Assembly: GCA_029059055.1 (NCBI GenBank)
Contig: JAIDWS010000007.1
Location: forward strand, 1 to 47,540
DNA from: Alphaproteobacteria bacterium
Lineage (GTDB): Bacteria > Pseudomonadota > Alphaproteobacteria > Rs-D84
Direction: 5' to 3'
Length of the DNA: 47,540 nucleotides
Below, piece by piece: positions 9,471-47,025 of this stretch; position 1 is the stretch's first letter; the number at the start of each line of letters is the position of its first letter. The notes under the pieces were generated by a model. It was not told the origin of the DNA. It saw only the letters and a program-made list of their open reading frames with translations, and did no database searches. Both the position numbers and the translations under genes were made by a program.

Positions 9471-9488
9471 TTCTACATATTTTATACT
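9460..9488 (+). promoter_or_regulatory. Promoter of Cys-rich gene 1
   Basis: TTGTTT (9460-9465), a 17-nt spacer and TATACT (9483-9488). The same boxes and spacing occur in the duplicate at 10229-10257. The predicted start is near 9495. Confidence 0.6.
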
Positions 9489-9494
9489 GGTGCT

Positions 9495-9753
9495 GAATCA
9501 ACAGGGATGTTGGCTCTGGGACTTGAAAATCCTATACACAAACGGTGCGGGGACGCATCGTAATCCGACAAAACATTGGTGCGTGTTTTGCGCCGTGTGT
9601 TTTATTATCCCGACTTTTATCGGTCGGGGATCTGTGATGATAAGGGCGCCACGGCGTCCAAAAGTCACGGGGTCATTTTTTGTGTATGATTTTTCAAATC
9701 CCCGACCGCCAGCCTTTGGCGGGTTTCTTTTTTACCAAGAAAAGGAGTGGGAA
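9495..9753 (+). promoter_or_regulatory. Structured 5' leader RNA 1, candidate attenuator
   Basis: A leader of about 260 nt. Visible pairings: a 5' hairpin CAGGG/CTCTG; a long-range stem ACGGTGC (9542-9548) with GCGCCGT (9590-9596) enclosing ACGCATC (9553-9559) with GGTGCGT (9578-9584); hairpin CCCGAC (9609-9614)/GTCGGG (9623-9628); and an alternative 11-bp stem CGGTCGGGGAT (9621-9631) with ATCCCCGACCG (9698-9708). The last overlaps the terminator stem by three bases. The GGTCGGGG strand can pair up- or downstream, the layout of a conditional attenuator. This explains the 337-base stretch between tatA and the next gene. The ligand or signal is unknown. Confidence 0.6.
9706..9733 (+). terminator. 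Attenuator terminator before the ribosome-binding site of gene 1
   Basis: CCGCCA-gcctt-TGGCGG followed by GTTTCTTTTTT, ending 9 nt before the AAGGAG of the next gene. With no promoter in between, transcription must read through it to express the gene. Confidence 0.65.
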
Positions 9754-10134
9754 ATGAAAAGAAATCATATCTTGACTATCTGGGGCTTGGTCATGACGTG
9801 GGGGACGTCGGTGTCGGCGCTGCCGGTAACACCGCCGACACAAGCTTGTATGCAGGCCCGAGAATGCACACAGACGGTATCGTGCGGTGCATATTGTTGT
9901 CCATCCGGGGCAACGGGGTCCAAGGAAGTTTGTCCAGATGGATGGACGTACGACACGATTTCAAAGGAATGCACCAGGGCGGGAACCACCACCGGCAGTG
10001 ACGGACTGGGGGCGTATGAATTGACATACGGTTCGTGCCAACCAGAAACGATTACGTATCCGTGTTATTATATAAGCTTTTCTGCAACGACGGCCGATGG
10101 GTTGCAATGTTATGAGTGTGCGACGTCGTCGTAA
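9754..10134 (+). CDS. Cys-rich secreted protein 1
   Basis: The product is 126 residues from ATG 9754; AAGGAG lies exactly 6 nt upstream. A signal peptide (residues 1 to about 22, ending VSA) is followed by a mature part with about 11 Cys in about 100 residues, including the pairs CGAYCC and QCYEC. The signal-peptide start MKR-[NK]-HI and upstream leader closely match the gene at 10524, but the mature proteins are unrelated by eye. It is probably an exported disulphide-bonded protein of the envelope or outside. Function is unknown. A longer upstream frame is ruled out by the terminator and ribosome-binding site. Confidence 0.75.
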   Translation: MKRNHILTIWGLVMTWGTSVSALPVTPPTQACMQARECTQTVSCGAYCCPSGATGSKEVCPDGWTYDTISKECTRAGTTTGSDGLGAYELTYGSCQPETITYPCYYISFSATTADGLQCYECATSS

Positions 10135-10263: not shown

Positions 10264-10523
10264 CGAGACGACAGGGATGTTGGCTCTGGGACTTGAAAAT
10301 CCCATAAGCAAACGGCGCAGCGATGCGTTGTAATTCGATGAAACATCGGTGCATTTTTTTGCGCCGTGTTTATTGACCCGACTGTTATTCGGTCGGGGAT
10401 CTGTGATGATAAGGGTGCCACGGCGCCCAAAAGTCACAGGGTCATTTTTGCTTATGATTTTTCAAATCCCCGACCGCCAAGCCTTTGGCGGTTTTTCTTT
10501 TTTACCGAAAAAAGGAGTGGGAA
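10264..10523 (+). promoter_or_regulatory. Structured 5' leader RNA 2, candidate attenuator
   Basis: This duplicate of leader 1 keeps its pairings despite base changes: ACGGCGC (10312-10318) with GCGCCGT (10361-10367); ATGCGTT (10323-10329) with GGTGCAT (10348-10354); CCCGAC (10377-10382) with GTCGGG (10392-10397); and CGGTCGGGGAT (10390-10400) with ATCCCCGACCG (10466-10476). One pair changed C-G to T-A, and others changed between G-C, A-T and G-T. It fills the 390-base gap between the two Cys-rich genes together with the dksA remnant. Confidence 0.6.
10474..10503 (+). terminator. Attenuator terminator before the ribosome-binding site of gene 2
   Basis: CCGCCAA-gcct-TTGGCGG followed by TTTTTCTTTTTTT, ending just before the AAGGAG at 10512. 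Its 5' arm shares three bases with the alternative long-range stem. Confidence 0.7.
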
Positions 10524-11294
10524 ATGAAAAGAAAGCATATCTGGATAATCTGGTGCGTGTGCGTAGGGTGGGGGATGTCACCGCCCGGCATGGCGGCCCC
10601 AACCGCCGCCACCTGCAAGGAGGTTTTTGCAAACAATCCGTCACAGTGTACCAGTTATTCAATCAGCACCGCTACACAGGGTGATGGCAGTACGCTGTAC
10701 ATCTGCACGTGCCAGGTTTGTAGCGATGGGTATCATATAAACAATGGTTCACAATATGTCAGCAGTAGTGTGAGTTTTTACCGGGCAAACACATGTGCGC
10801 GTGACGATTCAGGCGGTTCCGGTTCTGGGGGCGGGACAACCGTTCGGCCGTCCCGTTGTTCAACCGGGTCGCTGTGTACCCAGTGCAAGGGGCCCAGTGT
10901 TACAGTCAACGGTCAGATGTATTGCGGTATGTGGGCCAGTGATAAAAACACGCATACGTGTACCGCATCGCCCGGTACGTTGGCGGCATATTCGATGTCT
11001 GCATGTTGCGATTCGGACGGTTACGCGGTGGGAACCACAAATGCCTGTTATGTTATTGCATGTGAATCAGGGCGGGTTGCATCGGATGACCGCCGGTCGT
11101 GCGTTTGTGATATCGGATATTATGGCAATGTATCCGATGGATGTACGCGTTGTCCGGCATCGGGCGGTATTTACGGGTTGACCGAATCCAAAGGCAAGAC
11201 CGAGATAACCGATTGTTATTTCCCAGTGGGCCTGTCGACAAAAGATACATTTGGGACGTATCAATTTACCCAAGATTGTTATTACAAAAAATAA
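10524..11294 (+). CDS. Cys-rich secreted protein 2
   Basis: The product is 256 residues from ATG 10524, with AAGGAG 6 nt upstream. A signal peptide (residues 1 to about 25, ending GMAA) precedes a Cys-rich mature protein. A Gly/Ser hinge lies near residues 107-114. The C-terminal module CDIGYYGN...CTRCP...YGLTES...ITDCYF is shared in pattern with the protein at 38857-39486 (GYYG...CQRCP...YGVSM...VTDCWL). I infer a secreted, disulphide-rich envelope protein of a lineage-specific family. Function is unknown. Confidence 0.8.
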   Translation: MKRKHIWIIWCVCVGWGMSPPGMAAPTAATCKEVFANNPSQCTSYSISTATQGDGSTLYICTCQVCSDGYHINNGSQYVSSSVSFYRANTCARDDSGGSGSGGGTTVRPSRCSTGSLCTQCKGPSVTVNGQMYCGMWASDKNTHTCTASPGTLAAYSMSACCDSDGYAVGTTNACYVIACESGRVASDDRRSCVCDIGYYGNVSDGCTRCPASGGIYGLTESKGKTEITDCYFPVGLSTKDTFGTYQFTQDCYYKK

Positions 11295-37882: not shown

Positions 37883-38560
37883 TTATTTTACCACAATGCG
37901 GCCCGCGGACAAAGCGGTTGTTTCCGTCGGGTCAACCGCGGCGGTAAAATCAGATTGATGACTGATGAATAAAAACGTGGTGTCGGGCATTGTGGCCATC
38001 ACATTGGCGATTTGTTGCCGGGTCGCCGCATCGGCCCCGGAATCCGGTTCGTCCAAAATGGCCAGTTTCGGTGCCGTCATCACCAGACGCAACAGCATCA
38101 AGCGTTTGCGTTCCCCGCCAGAAAATCCGACATTTATGCTGCGGTTCAGCCATTCTTTTGGAATGTCCAGTTTGGCGCGCGCATCTTCCAGCCGGGTTAA
38201 AAATTCGCCCATGGACAAATCGCGTCCGGTTTGAAAATGCGCATGCGCAACGGCGGAATGCTTCAAAAAGCTCATCACTGTCAGACCCGGAATTTCCGGC
38301 ACATTTTGCGCCCCCAGGAATATCCCCAGTAATGCGCGTGTGGTTGCGTTTTCGTGTGTAATGTCGCGTCCGTCAAAGATAATTTGGCCGGTGCGGACCG
38401 TGTATCGGTCGTCACCGGCGATCACCGCGGCCAGGGTTGATTTCCCACTGCCGTTGTGGCCCGCCAATAAATGACGCGCCCCGCGCGTGACCGTCATATT
38501 GATATCGTGCAACAGTTCTTTGTCGTCCAACGATACAGATAAATTCTTGATTTCCAGCAT
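37883..38560 (-). CDS. sufC: Fe-S assembly ATPase SufC
   Basis: The ABC ATPase of the SufBCD scaffold. The 225-residue product has Walker A GHNGSGKST, signature FSGGERKR, Walker B LAILDEPDSG and the H-loop FISHQ. I placed the start at 38560 (MLEIKNLSVSL) with AGGA 6 nt upstream; the longer frame enters the promoter of the divergent Cys-rich gene. It is separated from sufB by that gene. Confidence 0.92.
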   Translation of the reverse strand: MLEIKNLSVSLDDKELLHDINMTVTRGARHLLAGHNGSGKSTLAAVIAGDDRYTVRTGQIIFDGRDITHENATTRALLGIFLGAQNVPEIPGLTVMSFLKHSAVAHAHFQTGRDLSMGEFLTRLEDARAKLDIPKEWLNRSINVGFSGGERKRLMLLRLVMTAPKLAILDEPDSGADAATRQQIANVMATMPDTTFLFISHQSDFTAAVDPTETTALSAGRIVVK

Positions 38561-38602
38561 TGTCAATCCTGTGGTTTTGGTATGAATTATACCACAAATT
38601 GC

Positions 38603-38632
38603 TTGCGTTGCAATTCGCATGAATGATATACT
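38603..38632 (+). promoter_or_regulatory. Promoter of Cys-rich gene 3
   Basis: TTGCGT (38603-38608), an 18-nt spacer and TATACT (38627-38632). The -10 box and the following G match the promoters at 9483 and 10252. Confidence 0.55.
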
Positions 38633-38638
38633 GAATCC

Positions 38639-38856
38639 GTCGACAGGTATTCTGTCGATGGGTGTGAGAACCCATATCTGGCGTCATAAAATCAAAGGCG
38701 CGTAAGTGTCTTTTTTTATTGTGATGAAAAGTACCCCAGCCCGGGCTGGGGGGCGGCGATATATTTGAATAAGCCCACAATTTCCAGAAATTGTTCTCAA
38801 CCCCCAGCCACCATTTTTTTGGTGGTTTTTTGGTTATGCAAAAAAAGGGGAATGAT
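38639..38856 (+). promoter_or_regulatory. Structured 5' leader RNA 3, candidate attenuator
   Basis: A leader of about 218 nt with the same plan as leaders 1 and 2 but mostly different sequence. It has a 5' hairpin TCGACAG-gtatt-CTGTCGA, a second hairpin ATGGG/CCCAT, and a hairpin CCCCAGCC (38734-38741)/GGCTGGGG (38744-38751). A competing 9-bp stem pairs GGCTGGGGG (38744-38752) with CCCCCAGCC (38801-38809) and shares two bases with the terminator stem. It fills the 296-base gap between sufC and the Cys-rich gene. Confidence 0.6.
38808..38831 (+). terminator. Attenuator terminator before the ribosome-binding site of gene 3
   Basis: CCACCA-tttttt-TGGTGG followed by six T, ending 13 nt before AAGGGG (38845-38850). 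Confidence 0.65.
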
Positions 38857-39486
38857 TTGAGACGATTTTTCGTTTTGCCATGTTTGATTTTTGGCGGATT
38901 CTGTGCATGCAGCGCGTTTGCCGATTATACAAAAAACGATACGTATTGTGTGATTGATTATTCGGTCAGTGGCGGTCAATGTTATTGGTGTCGGGCGGGT
39001 GGTGACACGGCGGCCGGCAATTGCAGAAAGGGCTATGCCGGATGCACAAGTACCACCGAAAAATATGTGAATGTCGGCAGTGTCACCGGTGGCTGGTGGT
39101 GCAGCAGTAACGGATTTTGCAAAATGACATGCGATGACAGTGGCCATTGGGCGGCGTATTCCGATATTGACCATGCGGGGCCGGATCTGGATGGGGTCGA
39201 AGTATGGATGGCGGCGTCGGGATGTGAATGTAATCAATTTGTGGCGGATACGTCAAAATTACGATGCGCGGCCGGGTATTACGGCACGCCGGATATTGTC
39301 GCGTACACAGGTTGCCAACGTTGCCCGGGTGTAACAAATGCCAATGGTGATATGGTTTATGGCGTCAGTATGGTTGGGTATAACAATGCCGTGACGGATT
39401 GCTGGCTGGAAGGGGGGATGGGCCCATTTTCAGATGACGGTGGCATCTATGACATTTTGTCGCCCATGTGTGCGTGGGCGGAATAA
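38857..39486 (+). CDS. Cys-rich secreted protein 3, TTG start
   Basis: The product is 209 residues if started at TTG 38857, which has AAGGGG exactly 6 nt upstream, the same spacing as genes 1 and 2. It gives a compact signal peptide RRFFVLPCLIFGGFCACSAFA. ATG 38836 has no ribosome-binding site and lies almost in the terminator. The mature protein has about 19 Cys, a module GYYGTP...GCQRCP...YGVSM...VTDCWL shared with protein 2, and an acidic end. It is probably exported and disulphide-rich. The gene is convergent with sufB, with 3 nt between the two stop codons. Confidence 0.75.
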   Translation: MRRFFVLPCLIFGGFCACSAFADYTKNDTYCVIDYSVSGGQCYWCRAGGDTAAGNCRKGYAGCTSTTEKYVNVGSVTGGWWCSSNGFCKMTCDDSGHWAAYSDIDHAGPDLDGVEVWMAASGCECNQFVADTSKLRCAAGYYGTPDIVAYTGCQRCPGVTNANGDMVYGVSMVGYNNAVTDCWLEGGMGPFSDDGGIYDILSPMCAWAE

Positions 39487-39489
39487 TTT

Positions 39490-40815
39490 TTAGTGCGCCA
39501 GGGCCATTTGAATCAATTGCTTGGATTCCACCAAAAATTCCATCGGCAATCGTGCGATAATCGGTGCGGCCATACCACCGACAATCAATGCGGTCGCCGC
39601 ATCGGTGTCAATGCCGGCCTGGGCCAGGTATCGCAACGCCGCCGCGTCAATTGCACCGGTGGTTGCTTCGTGGCTTTGGTCATTTTCGCCGTTTGTGTGG
39701 ATGACGGTTGGCAAAGTGTTCGCCACCGCCGCGTCCCCGATGATACGACTGTCGCATTTGCATGCGTTGATGGCGCCGCGACCGGTGAATGAAACCAGAC
39801 TGCGAAATGTTTGGCGGGATGTATCCAGTGCCACCCCGTATGACAAGATGTTTGATTTCGTGTCGTTGCCCACGTGAATCATTTTGGTGCCGGTGTCGGC
39901 CTGTTGATTGCCGCGTGTGATGGTCAGTGAATAAAAATCACTGGTGGCATTGTCGCCCGCCAAAACGGTCGATGGGTATTTCCATGTCATTGCAGACCCG
40001 ATTTCCACCTGGGTCCAATCCAGGCGCGCGCCGGTGTCTGCGCGTCCACGCTTGGTCACGAAATTCAAAATGCCGCCACTGGATTTTTTCTGGGAAAAAT
40101 CCCCCGCGTACCAGTTTTGAACCGTGGCGTAACGAACGGTGGCGTTGTCGTGTGCAATCACTTCGACCACACCGCTGTGTAATTGATGATTGGGGCGGCG
40201 CGGGGCGCTGCATCCTTCCATGTATGACAACGTGGCGCCGCGGTCCGCAATAATCAGTGTTCGTTCAAATTGGCCGATTTTTGCCGTTTCAATTCGGAAA
40301 TAGCTGGCCAAATCAATCGGGCATTTGGTGTTTGGTGGGACATAGACGAACGTCCCGTCGGAAAACACCGCCGCATTCAGTGCGGCAAAGAAATTGTCCG
40401 CCGCCGGCACAACCGTCCCCAGATATTTTTTGACCAAATCCGGATATTGGCGCACCGCATCCGACATCGGTAAAAAGATAATTCCCAATTTTTGCAATTC
40501 GGCGGTATATGACGTATGGACGGATTTGCTGTCGATGACGGTGTCGGTCGCCATTCCCATCAGTGCCCGCTGTTCGTGTTCCGGCAGACCCATTTTGTCA
40601 TACGTTTCTTTTAAATCAGAATTATCAATCGCCGCCGGTTCGTTGTAGTAATTCAGGCTGTCGTAATCAATCGGGTCATAATCAATTTCGCCCCAATGCG
40701 GTTCGCGCATTTTCATCCACGCATCCAGCGCCCCCAGACGCCATTGCAACAGCCAGTCCGGTTCGCCGCGTGCGGCGGAAATTTCACAAACCAATTCCCG
40801 GGACAGTTTTGCCAT
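39490..40815 (-). CDS. sufB: Fe-S assembly scaffold SufB
   Basis: SufB builds clusters with SufC and SufD. In the 441-residue product the N-terminal helical region (EPHWGEIDYDPIDYDSLNYY) precedes the beta-helix core, with VPPNTKCPIDLASYFRIE, EGCSAPRRPNHQLHSGVVE and C-terminal LPMEFLVESKQLIQ. It overlaps nothing and lies 10 nt after the membrane protein gene at 40826. No sufD is present in the window. Confidence 0.94.
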   Translation of the reverse strand: MAKLSRELVCEISAARGEPDWLLQWRLGALDAWMKMREPHWGEIDYDPIDYDSLNYYNEPAAIDNSDLKETYDKMGLPEHEQRALMGMATDTVIDSKSVHTSYTAELQKLGIIFLPMSDAVRQYPDLVKKYLGTVVPAADNFFAALNAAVFSDGTFVYVPPNTKCPIDLASYFRIETAKIGQFERTLIIADRGATLSYMEGCSAPRRPNHQLHSGVVEVIAHDNATVRYATVQNWYAGDFSQKKSSGGILNFVTKRGRADTGARLDWTQVEIGSAMTWKYPSTVLAGDNATSDFYSLTITRGNQQADTGTKMIHVGNDTKSNILSYGVALDTSRQTFRSLVSFTGRGAINACKCDSRIIGDAAVANTLPTVIHTNGENDQSHEATTGAIDAAALRYLAQAGIDTDAATALIVGGMAAPIIARLPMEFLVESKQLIQMALAH

Positions 40816-44214: not shown

Positions 44215-47025
44215 ATGGCGTTGGAAGCTATCAAAATATGCCTAATCCAATGGGACGGTTTTTCTGGCGCAGTAAAAATTCCCAAAAGCCGCAGAAATCC
44301 GCATAAGAATATATCCCCCGTATTGCATAAAATAATCGTCGGTTTAATATCGGCGTTGATGGTGTTGTGTGTTGGTGGTGTTGCGCATGCGGCGGGTTAT
44401 ACATGTCCGACATATAAAAAATACACATCATGTAATTCCGGGTATTATTTGAATGGGACATCTGCGGGCAACGCGTGCGTTGCGTGTTCGACGGTATCGT
44501 TTACGGAATCCAGTACGGACAGCACGACAGACAGCAGTGCCTGTACCGCGACCAGTCAAACCGTAACCAGTGGATATTGTAAACAGAATCAGGTACGCAG
44601 TGGTTCGCGGACCGGGACGCGCAGTAAAACGCGCACGTGTTATCGTACGGGTGGTGCGGGTGGCACGAACGGCTCATCTGCGTGTACGGGGTCGGCCAAT
44701 TGTGGTGCGTATTCATATGGGGCATGGTCATATGGGTCATGCACATATACGGCATGGACGAACAGTGGTTCTGTGTACGATTGTTCGTGTCCCGCGGGAT
44801 ATTATTTAAGTGGTACATCATGCGGTGCATGTACATCAATATCATTTACCGACAGTGGTACGGACACCGGCACGGACACCAGTGGTTGTACCGCGACATC
44901 GCAGACGGTCACGGTCAGCATCAGCAACGGTTCATATAAACAGAATCAGGTACGCAGTGGGTCGCGCACATGGTCACGTTCAAAATCGCGTACATGTTAC
45001 CGCACGGGCGGTGCGGGTGGCACGAATGGATCATCTGCGTGTACGGGGACGGGTAATTGTGGTTCGTATACGTATGGCAGTTACAGTTACGGTTCGTGTT
45101 CATATGGCGCATGGTCGAACAGTGGGTCCGCATACGGTTACAGCTGTAACGCCGGGTATTATTGGAACGGGTCGGCGTGCGCGGCGTGTACGGCGGGGAA
45201 TTATTGCCCGGGATTTTCAAACGTCAACAGTCCGTCGGCCGGATATGGTCTGAACAGTTGTACAAACGCCCCGGCCAATGCAAATTATACCGGCAGTTCC
45301 ACATCAAATTCATGCGCATGGTCGTGCAATGCCGGATATTATGGCAGCAGTGCCGCCGGCAGTACATCGTGCGCGGCCTGTGGCCAGGGGAATTATTGTA
45401 CCGGTGGTACGCATCGCGCGACATGCGCCAGCACCGTCCCGGCCGGTGCAGCGACGCCGACAATTATCCGCAGTTTGTCCAGCGGCAGCTGGTCCGACCT
45501 GACACATGGGGCCAGTATTTATGACTGTATGTGCGATTGGTATTTCAGCGACGAAACCCGTACGCAATATATGAACGAACGGTCCTGTACATATGGACCG
45601 GGTGGGAACAATTATACCAAATATGAATGGTGTCGGACCGGATATTACGCCAGCAATCCGTTGAACTTTAACAATTGGTACAACAGTTGCAGTCCATGTA
45701 CCAATGCGCCGGCCAACGCCACGTATACCAGTTATTCGACGCCGTCGACCATGTATGCGGTGGAAAGTAACTGTCCATGGCAATGTAATGCGAATTATTA
45801 TCAAAACGGCACCACATGCACCGCGTGTAATTCGGGATACACGTCACCCGCCGGGTCAACCGCGGCGTCCAGCTGTACCAAGTCCTGTACGCGGGCCTGT
45901 ACGCAACAGACGTGTCCGACATCTGCATACAGTTGCACCCATGGTTCCACATCCACCACCGGCACCGATGCCCAGGGTGTCGGGTGTAATGCGGCCGCAT
46001 CCACGTGCAGTTTGACCATCAACAGTTGTAAGAACGGATATTACAAAGATGGTAATGCGTGCAGCGCATGTCCGTCGACGCATCCCAATTCCGCCGACGG
46101 CACCACCGGGGGCAGTGGGGCGTGTTGGAAATCGTGTACGCGTGCCTGTACCCAGCCGGCGTGCCCAGCCAATGCCACATGTACATACGGCACCACGTCC
46201 ACATCCGGCACAGAAACATATGGCGGATCGTGCAGTGCGGCCACATCCACGTGTTCGGTAACCGTTACATGCAATCCGGGATATTATAAAAACAGCAGCG
46301 GCACATGCACCGCATGCGAAGATGGATATTTCTGTCCGGGTAACAATACGCGTACGGCATGCACGACGCTGGGGGCGGGGTACACCAAATCCGATGGCGC
46401 GCGCAGTGCGAATACGCATTGTTATCAGGATTGTTCCAAGGCATGCACAACGGCCGCATGTGGTACGGGTGTCAACGCATGCACCCATGCATCGACATCC
46501 ACATCCGGTACCCAGCATTACCAGGGAACATGTACCGCCGCCGCATCCACATGCGCCCAGACGGTCACGAATTGCGCATCGGGGTATTACAAAAACGGTA
46601 ACGCATGCAGCGCATGCAGCAGTCTGGGGGATCAGACATACACCAACAGTGCCAACGCCAATTCCAGCGGCAGTGGGGTTTGTTATAAATCCTGTGCCAA
46701 CAGCAATGTGTCCAACGGATATATCCCGCCGACCAGTGCGACCGTCAATTATCCGGCGACGTGCGCATACAATGCGGCCAGCACCGTGTGCAACACCGGA
46801 TACAGTCTGACATCATCGAATGTATGTGCGGCGATGTGCGCGGCGGGTGTGACGAAAATCCGCACAGGGAATGTCACGGTGCCGTTGTACGCATCCAAAC
46901 AGACCACACCGGCATTGCATGTCAGTATCGGGGGCAAGGTGTGTTACGGCAGTTTGGACAGTGACGCCGGCACATCGGCCATAAACGTAAATTACGGGGG
47001 TAAAACGTATCATTCGATAAAGTAA
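44215..47025 (+). CDS. Large Cys-rich secreted repeat protein (936 aa)
   Basis: From ATG 44215 the product is 936 residues. A hydrophobic signal core (IIVGLISALMVLCVGGVAHA, about 40-59) suggests export; TTG 44323 would give a short standard signal peptide and lie inside the transcript. The rest is Cys-, Gly-, Ser-, Thr-rich with at least eight GYY-x-NG-x-x-C-x-x-C modules like GCC2/EGF-type domains. Two copies of an RSGSR...RTCYRTGGAGG segment and three C-[TS]-[RK]-ACT...STC...GYYK repeats follow. The last 60 residues form a Cys-poor beta-type domain (ending GGKTYHSIK). A surface adhesin or filament is plausible. It follows pilN but has its own promoter. Confidence 0.82.
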   Translation: MALEAIKICLIQWDGFSGAVKIPKSRRNPHKNISPVLHKIIVGLISALMVLCVGGVAHAAGYTCPTYKKYTSCNSGYYLNGTSAGNACVACSTVSFTESSTDSTTDSSACTATSQTVTSGYCKQNQVRSGSRTGTRSKTRTCYRTGGAGGTNGSSACTGSANCGAYSYGAWSYGSCTYTAWTNSGSVYDCSCPAGYYLSGTSCGACTSISFTDSGTDTGTDTSGCTATSQTVTVSISNGSYKQNQVRSGSRTWSRSKSRTCYRTGGAGGTNGSSACTGTGNCGSYTYGSYSYGSCSYGAWSNSGSAYGYSCNAGYYWNGSACAACTAGNYCPGFSNVNSPSAGYGLNSCTNAPANANYTGSSTSNSCAWSCNAGYYGSSAAGSTSCAACGQGNYCTGGTHRATCASTVPAGAATPTIIRSLSSGSWSDLTHGASIYDCMCDWYFSDETRTQYMNERSCTYGPGGNNYTKYEWCRTGYYASNPLNFNNWYNSCSPCTNAPANATYTSYSTPSTMYAVESNCPWQCNANYYQNGTTCTACNSGYTSPAGSTAASSCTKSCTRACTQQTCPTSAYSCTHGSTSTTGTDAQGVGCNAAASTCSLTINSCKNGYYKDGNACSACPSTHPNSADGTTGGSGACWKSCTRACTQPACPANATCTYGTTSTSGTETYGGSCSAATSTCSVTVTCNPGYYKNSSGTCTACEDGYFCPGNNTRTACTTLGAGYTKSDGARSANTHCYQDCSKACTTAACGTGVNACTHASTSTSGTQHYQGTCTAAASTCAQTVTNCASGYYKNGNACSACSSLGDQTYTNSANANSSGSGVCYKSCANSNVSNGYIPPTSATVNYPATCAYNAASTVCNTGYSLTSSNVCAAMCAAGVTKIRTGNVTVPLYASKQTTPALHVSIGGKVCYGSLDSDAGTSAINVNYGGKTYHSIK
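44575..44720 (+). repeat. Internal repeat copy 1 in the large Cys-rich gene
   Basis: It encodes KQNQVRSGSR...RTCYRTGGAGGTNGS and is similar in DNA to 44936-45078 (copy 2). Both contain GTAAACAGAATCAGGTACG-like starts and a GGTGCGGGTGGCACGAA core. Confidence 0.8.
44936..45078 (+). repeat. Internal repeat copy 2 in the large Cys-rich gene
   Basis: The second copy of the RSGSR/CYRTGG segment, about 360 bp after the first, with mostly synonymous differences. The spacing suggests an in-frame duplication of a module of about 120 residues. Confidence 0.8.
45880..46620 (+). repeat. Three degenerate 60-75-residue repeats in the large Cys-rich gene
   Basis: Repeats begin near 45882 (CTRACTQQTC), 46131 (CTRACTQPAC) and 46431 (CSKACTTAAC). 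Each continues with C-[TH]-x-[GA]-[TS]-TST-x-GT, STC and GYYK-x-x-[NG]-x-C. Confidence 0.8.

Follow-up and report, generated by a model that had tools for sequence, protein, structure and literature searches.

A probable distant relative of the phage c4/isrK RNA module in a cassette inserted backwards between sufB and sufC

A gene for a cysteine-rich, exported-looking protein, preceded by a structured leader, lies backwards between sufB and sufC in the window, that is, the whole 47,540-nucleotide stretch of DNA analysed here. This raises the question of how the gene came to be there and what its leader does. The window belongs to order Rs-D84, the order of the gut alphaproteobacterial lineage Candidatus Enterousia, whose genomes are reduced (PMC12306168). 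GatB proteins 80–90% identical to that of the window genome come from metagenome-assembled genomes of gut Alphaproteobacteria, some of which bear the name Candidatus Enterousia. In our reading the leader is probably a self-addressed antisense module related to c4 and isrK, carried in a mobile-looking unit that was inserted backwards between sufB and sufC, and most likely represses its own gene. The element is defined by two long-range pairings which, like its kinship with c4/isrK and sRNA-Xcc1, were missed in the original prediction made for this locus.

The gene and its place in the suf operon

The gene runs on the forward strand from a TTG codon at 38857 to a TAA codon at 39486 and encodes 209 amino acids, including 18 cysteines, with an exported-looking N-terminus. 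It is flanked by sufC (37883–38620, PF00005; the conserved protein begins near 38563) and sufB (39490–40815, PF01458), both on the reverse strand, and the opposite orientation that had been claimed for it is thus correct. Its C-terminal GYYG..C..CP..TDC module was predicted to be shared with protein 2 of the window, and the two proteins indeed match there at 30% over 80 amino acids (E 2e-4). No family match to the protein was obtained in Pfam, NCBIfam or PHROGs, and its AlphaFold2 model had a pLDDT of 52. Another cysteine-rich protein of the window, a 936-residue repeat protein with a weak TNFR-like Pfam match (44215–47025), is encoded without a C4-like leader upstream.

Insertion of the gene into the operon had been proposed, and examination of the sufB–sufC junction in relatives was used to evaluate it. 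Of 39 genomes of the genus, 38 yielded a SufB protein, and the spacing between sufB and sufC was -4 to 66 nt in 26 of the 29 congeners read. Three relatives (G010, G459 and G023) hold orthologs of the cysteine-rich gene at the identical suf site, with the leader and gene reversed in the gap as in the window genome, which brings the total to four out of 30 genomes. This cassette-like distribution, together with the tight junction of most congeners, supports insertion. The four leaders at the site are 80% identical and their proteins are related, and on the SufB tree the distribution requires three changes, a weakly supported figure. As the four cassettes are orthologous, the most parsimonious scenario is a single insertion with subsequent losses, or else a small number of transfers. 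The orthology, which may reflect one insertion with later losses, and the three changes on the tree would also suit an ancestral gap whose cassette was lost from the remaining genomes, but this is unlikely given that the tight sufBC junction of 26 of 29 congeners is the one usual for this operon and is the expected ancestral state. At four loci (L155, L163, L164 and L165) the inserted segment, upstream of sufC, also contributes a divergent promoter-like TTGCAACGCAAG...TATAAT directed towards sufC.

The leader and its family

The leader lies on the forward strand. Its promoter has the -10 box TATACT (38627–38632), and the identical hexamer precedes the leaders at 9483 and 10252, as had been predicted for the three leaders of the window. 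The box is followed by an a1b1-like part in which hairpin 1 (TCGACAG-GTATT-CTGTCGA, 38640–38658), identified by folding, is joined by hairpin 2 (38658–38675). The loop of the latter carries address A (TGAGAA, 38665–38670), the counterpart of target a1 of phage P1, and address B (TCTGG, 38677–38681), the counterpart of b1, stands just behind it. Terminator T1, recognized from sequence and fold as AAAGGCGC-GTAA-GTGTCTTT with a U tract (38694–38717), would terminate a short isrK-like RNA.

Downstream of T1 lies a C4-like core of three helices (38744–38809), placed by a covariance model, R1, described below: helix P1 (38744–38752 with 38801–38809), P2 (38755–38757 with 38773–38775) and P3 (38777–38783 with 38788–38794). 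The P3 loop holds B' (CCAGA, 38784–38788), complementary to B and the counterpart of b', and A' (TTCTCA, 38794–38799), complementary to A and the counterpart of a', sits behind P3, ahead of the 3' arm of helix P1. Terminator T2 (CCACCA/TGGTGG with a U tract, 38808–38831; helix 4 of R1) shares its first two bases with helix P1. The ribosome-binding site GGGG (38847–38850) stands 6 nt upstream of the TTG start; this spacing, GGGG-AATGAT-TTG, agrees with that of the leaders at 9.5 and 10.3 kb, as had been stated.

The competing stems of the original prediction read as claimed. GGCTGGGG (38744–38751) can pair upstream with CCCCAGCC (38734–38741), forming a hairpin CCCCAGCC-CG-GGCTGGGG (38734–38751) that is present in the minimum-energy fold and competes for the 5' arm of helix P1, while GGCTGGGGG (38744–38752) can pair downstream with CCCCCAGCC (38801–38809). 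The leader folds much more stably than its shuffled versions (z = -7.3). T1 is retained in all four orthologous leaders at the suf site; across the genome, a T1 of this kind can be recognized in no more than 17 of the 69 copies. The P2 loop, GAATATATTGAATAA, is highly conserved among the leaders. Helix P1 starts with GG and is followed by ACC(A), which is at most compatible with an RNase P cut at its 5' end.

R1 was built from seven leaders outside the window, recovered as the other leaders in a BLAST search of the region against its own genome, and contains no window sequence. It nevertheless finds all three leaders of the window: the core of the leader at the suf site (38744–38831; 72.6 bits, E 2e-13), the second leader, on the forward strand at 10391–10497 before the cysteine-rich gene 10524–11294 (43.2 bits, E 3e-7), and the first, on the same strand at 9622–9728 before the cysteine-rich gene 9754–10134 (33.7 bits, E 3e-5). 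The A and B runs of both of these are 7 and 9. Search of the 998-kb genome, a draft of 38 contigs, with R1, whose E-values are rough, returned 69 places at E <= 1, of which about 65 fell below 1e-3. Addition of the first window leader to the 69 places gave the set of 70 copies used below. All 34 congeners searched contain copies, ranging from 1 to 51 apiece; in the rest of the order copies become sparser than in the genus, and among the genomes sampled from the class, 10 that lie outside the genus had one to six.

Pair counts were carried out on 48 distinct copies, in an alignment that was fitted to R1 and thus leans towards it. Here 93.8% of cells were paired and 17 of the 27 pairs showed compensatory changes; every measure lay beyond 500 shuffles, and structures slid along the alignment dropped to 38–51% paired. 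The leader resemblance postulated for the three window leaders did not fail in the covariance search and is that of an RNA-fold family. G-U pairs are widely tolerated in the helices and argue for an RNA rather than a DNA element. At three places of the genome (C11:20821–21293, C28:18852–19186 and C8:6025–6371) the RNA element occurs in tandem with no clear gene downstream, and in a genome of another alphaproteobacterial family (G785) it was seen at two loci, L188 and L202, upstream of genes with type IV pilin-like N-termini.

The genes behind the 70 leaders were classified by simple rules, with one gene of 13 cysteines (C27:7387) moved by hand from "other" to the cysteine-rich class. In this classification 28 leaders (about 40%) precede genes for cysteine-rich exported proteins, 21 (30%) a 75-residue HTH protein, 3 an XRE gene and 8 other genes, and 10 have no clear open reading frame behind them. 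The idea that such leaders are a signature of cysteine-rich exported proteins is hence not supported, only 28 of the 70 preceding such genes. The 75-residue protein is HTH_31-like, its 21 cassettes are near-identical, and no relatives were found in the named genomes or viral contigs searched. Many of these HTH cassettes (e.g. C38:5186 and C8:6841) have a palindrome, TTGTCATTGCGAG...GGCAATCCAG, upstream.

Pairing codes and kinship with phage RNAs

Reading the copies side by side revealed two complementarities, one of the hairpin-2 loop (A) to the bases immediately preceding the 3' arm of helix P1 (A'), the other of the strand after hairpin 2 (B) to the P3 loop (B'). This layout with its complements is present in 69 of the 70 genome copies. 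B was located without the use of B', so that its test is independent. The complementary run of B averaged 7.63 with its own B' and 4.61 with the B' of other copies, and in 10,000 permutations the observed value of 526.5 compared with a mean of 321 and a standard deviation of 8.5 (z about 24). The corresponding permutation for A is biased, as hairpin 2 was placed using the cognate A', and was not counted as evidence. With A and B combined, no other partner outscored the cognate one in 61 of 69 leaders. A looser search for duplexes across the entire upstream regions proved too noisy, with the cognate best in just 19 of 70, and was replaced by this explicit extraction of A and B.

The codes change even between close paralogs. 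Within the 21 near-identical HTH cassettes, diversity was 0.63 in B, 0.61 in B', 0.46 in A and 0.28 in A' as compared to 0.20 elsewhere, B/B' being three times as variable as the remainder. At the suf site the orthologs in G010 and G459 carry TCGAG/CTCGA in place of TCTGG/CCAGA, a change on both sides of the pairing. B and B' could also be kept matched by neutral template switching between inverted repeats. Paralogs with exchanged pairing codes constitute a natural data set on how antisense specificity evolves without cross-talk.

The kinship of the element was evaluated with Rfam models. At gathering cut-offs the window contained two tRNAs only, and the best match of the C4 model in the window's own genome (19.4 bits, E 0.19) lay away from any leader. 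The sRNA-Xcc1 model (RF02221) gave 23 matches in the genome at E <= 1, all 23 of which coincide with leaders; no leader reached its cut-off of 53 bits, the scores spanning 28–40 (34.9 at 38744–38817, top 40.4). In the reciprocal direction, weak matches of R1 fell on sRNA-Xcc1 sites in 9 of 10 cases. The isrK model (RF01394) aligns to 38640–38716 including T1 at 29.5 bits, below its 50-bit cut-off. The segment 38640–38717 contains two hairpins and the putative terminator T1, with the gene further downstream, from which a read-through mRNA would be made. At the annotated c4 locus of phage P1 the isrK and c4-a1b1 models match the a1/b1 part and C4 comes next, which is the order in which isrK and sRNA-Xcc1 match the window leader. 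Inspection of phage P1 by eye placed the a1/a' and b1/b' pairings at sites equivalent to A/A' and B/B'.

Thirty sRNA-Xcc1 loci of other Pseudomonadota carry A, B, B' and A' and, in addition, a2/b2 over the Shine–Dalgarno sequence (z 5.0 and 8.6). Of ten downstream proteins picked from these loci, nine are of phage antirepressor or regulator types (Bro-N, P22_AR_N, KilA-N or Rha), a figure that is not a frequency since the proteins were hand-picked. In the leaders of the window genome b2 over the Shine–Dalgarno sequence is absent (z 0.9) and a2 is weak (z 4.0). It is this b2 target through which C4 acts as a repressor in phage P1, and its absence weighs against the antisense reading of the leaders. 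A prophage from IMG/VR (L293:1240–1560) contains a 17-mer of the leaders' P2 loop at the matching position together with A/A', B/B', a2 and b2, with an integrase gene upstream and a Bro-N antirepressor gene downstream. Our conclusion is that the leader descends distantly from modules of the c4/isrK kind or shares their ancestry, has been domesticated, and lies outside the curated families as they stand. The Rfam sRNA-Xcc1 family seems to be restricted to the 3' half of the element, and the separate families sRNA-Xcc1, C4/c4-a1b1 and isrK become parts of one layout. As a side observation, the Pseudomonadota loci of Rfam sRNA-Xcc1 (L124–L153) look like c4-type antirepressor leaders with a2/b2 over the ribosome-binding site; sRNA-Xcc1 gains a cis role as the leader of phage antirepressor genes.

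Proposed mechanism and comparison with known systems

The proposed unit would consist of a promoter, an antisense RNA module and the gene for an exported cysteine-rich protein. Three products of a single promoter are envisaged: a short 5' RNA with A and B, able to stop at T1 and isrK-like; a tRNA-like RNA of three helices with B' and A', C4-like and ending at T2, whose 5' end may be cut by RNase P; and the mRNA, made by read-through of T1 and T2. A/B would pair with B'/A' either in cis, on a single RNA molecule, or in trans, between separate transcripts of one locus, and this pairing would compete with the C4-like fold. Such self-addressed antisense attenuation would most likely keep the gene at low output. 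In the minimum-energy fold the A/B-B'/A' duplex replaces helix P1 in 66 of 69 copies and is favoured by a median of 8 kcal/mol; a fold of this kind has been described as the silent state of isrK (PMC4825925). Cofolding of the two RNAs of the window leader in trans gave a small gain of -2 kcal/mol. The sign of the effect could be the opposite, activation, as IsrK activates rather than represses.

Gating of the terminator in front of the gene by the competing stem had also been predicted. This part of the prediction was not supported, as T2 forms in both alternative states according to folding energies and its pairing is equal in the two. The sequence therefore gives no indication that T2 is gated by the switch.

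IsrK provides the main rival to repression. The full transcript would then be silent and the short T1 RNA would compete for B'/A' and turn the gene on, just as short IsrK works in trans and activates its own read-through mRNA (PMC4825925). Alignment of the isrK model to 38640–38716 including T1 and to the equivalent part of phage P1 fits such an activator or decoy, as does the silent duplex being the favoured fold. On the other hand, a recognizable T1 is confined to 17 of 69 copies, and the ribosome-binding site lies outside the duplex, so that freeing B'/A' would have no obvious effect on translation; we regard activation of this kind as rather unlikely. More improbable still is a ligand-binding riboswitch in which the P2 loop and the junction form the pocket and A/A' and B/B' are nothing but tertiary contacts stabilizing the fold. 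The P2 loop is highly conserved, a terminator lies right before the gene and kissing loops are common among riboswitches, but it is B/B' and A/A' that vary most within the element, even between near-identical paralogs, which is unexpected around a pocket. Moreover, pairing of A/B cuts across helix P1 and takes its place in the minimum-energy fold of 66 of 69 copies, the homologous phage loci repeat the pairing letters over the Shine–Dalgarno sequence in an antisense logic, and the regulated genes have no common pathway.

The last alternative dispenses with RNA: the inverted repeats would serve as a recombination or insertion site comparable to integron attC, with the RNA fold being incidental. 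It draws on the cassette-like distribution and on the occurrence of sRNA-Xcc1 in integron cassettes of Xanthomonas, where it lies upstream of symE (PMC12444791). We give it very little credence given the tolerance of G-U pairs in the helices, the fixed order of promoter, element and ribosome-binding site with two terminators kept, and the covarying codes, which vary between copies where a shared recombination site would forbid it.

Since the pairing code differs between copies, we propose under the antisense reading that the roughly 65 copies are silenced largely independently. Whether a phage immunity switch has in this way been turned into a genome-wide set of about 65 private antisense switches, one per gene, with codes diversifying against cross-talk and genes silenced singly, is in our view evenly balanced. 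If so, many exported proteins and small regulators would be silenced one by one in a reduced genome, and the copies that precede exported cysteine-rich genes would make individual control of surface or secreted proteins with hardly any regulator proteins plausible.

Compared to c4 of phages P1 and P7 (RF01695, RF03163), the leaders show the same succession of two hairpins, the second of which carries a1 in its loop and has b1 behind it, and then an RNA of three helices, in which b' occupies the P3 loop, a' precedes the last strand of helix P1 and the end reads CCACC. They differ in being too divergent for the C4 model, in having no b2 over the Shine–Dalgarno sequence, in the terminator that stands directly behind the core and shares two bases with helix P1, in genes that encode cysteine-rich exported or HTH proteins and not antirepressors, and in numbering about 65 per genome as opposed to one c4 per phage. 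The A/B/B'/A' layout is common to sRNA-Xcc1 (RF02221), the model of which matches 23 leaders and nothing else in the genome, whereas the a2/b2 of sRNA-Xcc1 loci lacks its b2 part in the leaders, which score 28–40 bits against 53. IsrK of the Salmonella prophage Gifsy-1 is a short, terminated 5' RNA whose middle pairs downstream in the read-through transcript (PMC4825925), an arrangement proposed for the window leader too, although the leader scores 29.5 bits against 50 and the downstream genes are unrelated. C4 itself uses a'/b' to block its target and is a substrate of RNase P cleavage (PMC5320573). The Group 1 C4-like sRNAs of Acinetobacter baumannii resemble the leaders in that many C4-derived RNAs with a variable pairing loop occur per chromosome (PMC5320573); those, however, are reported as sRNAs with proposed trans targets, whereas the leaders keep both pairing partners and the downstream gene.
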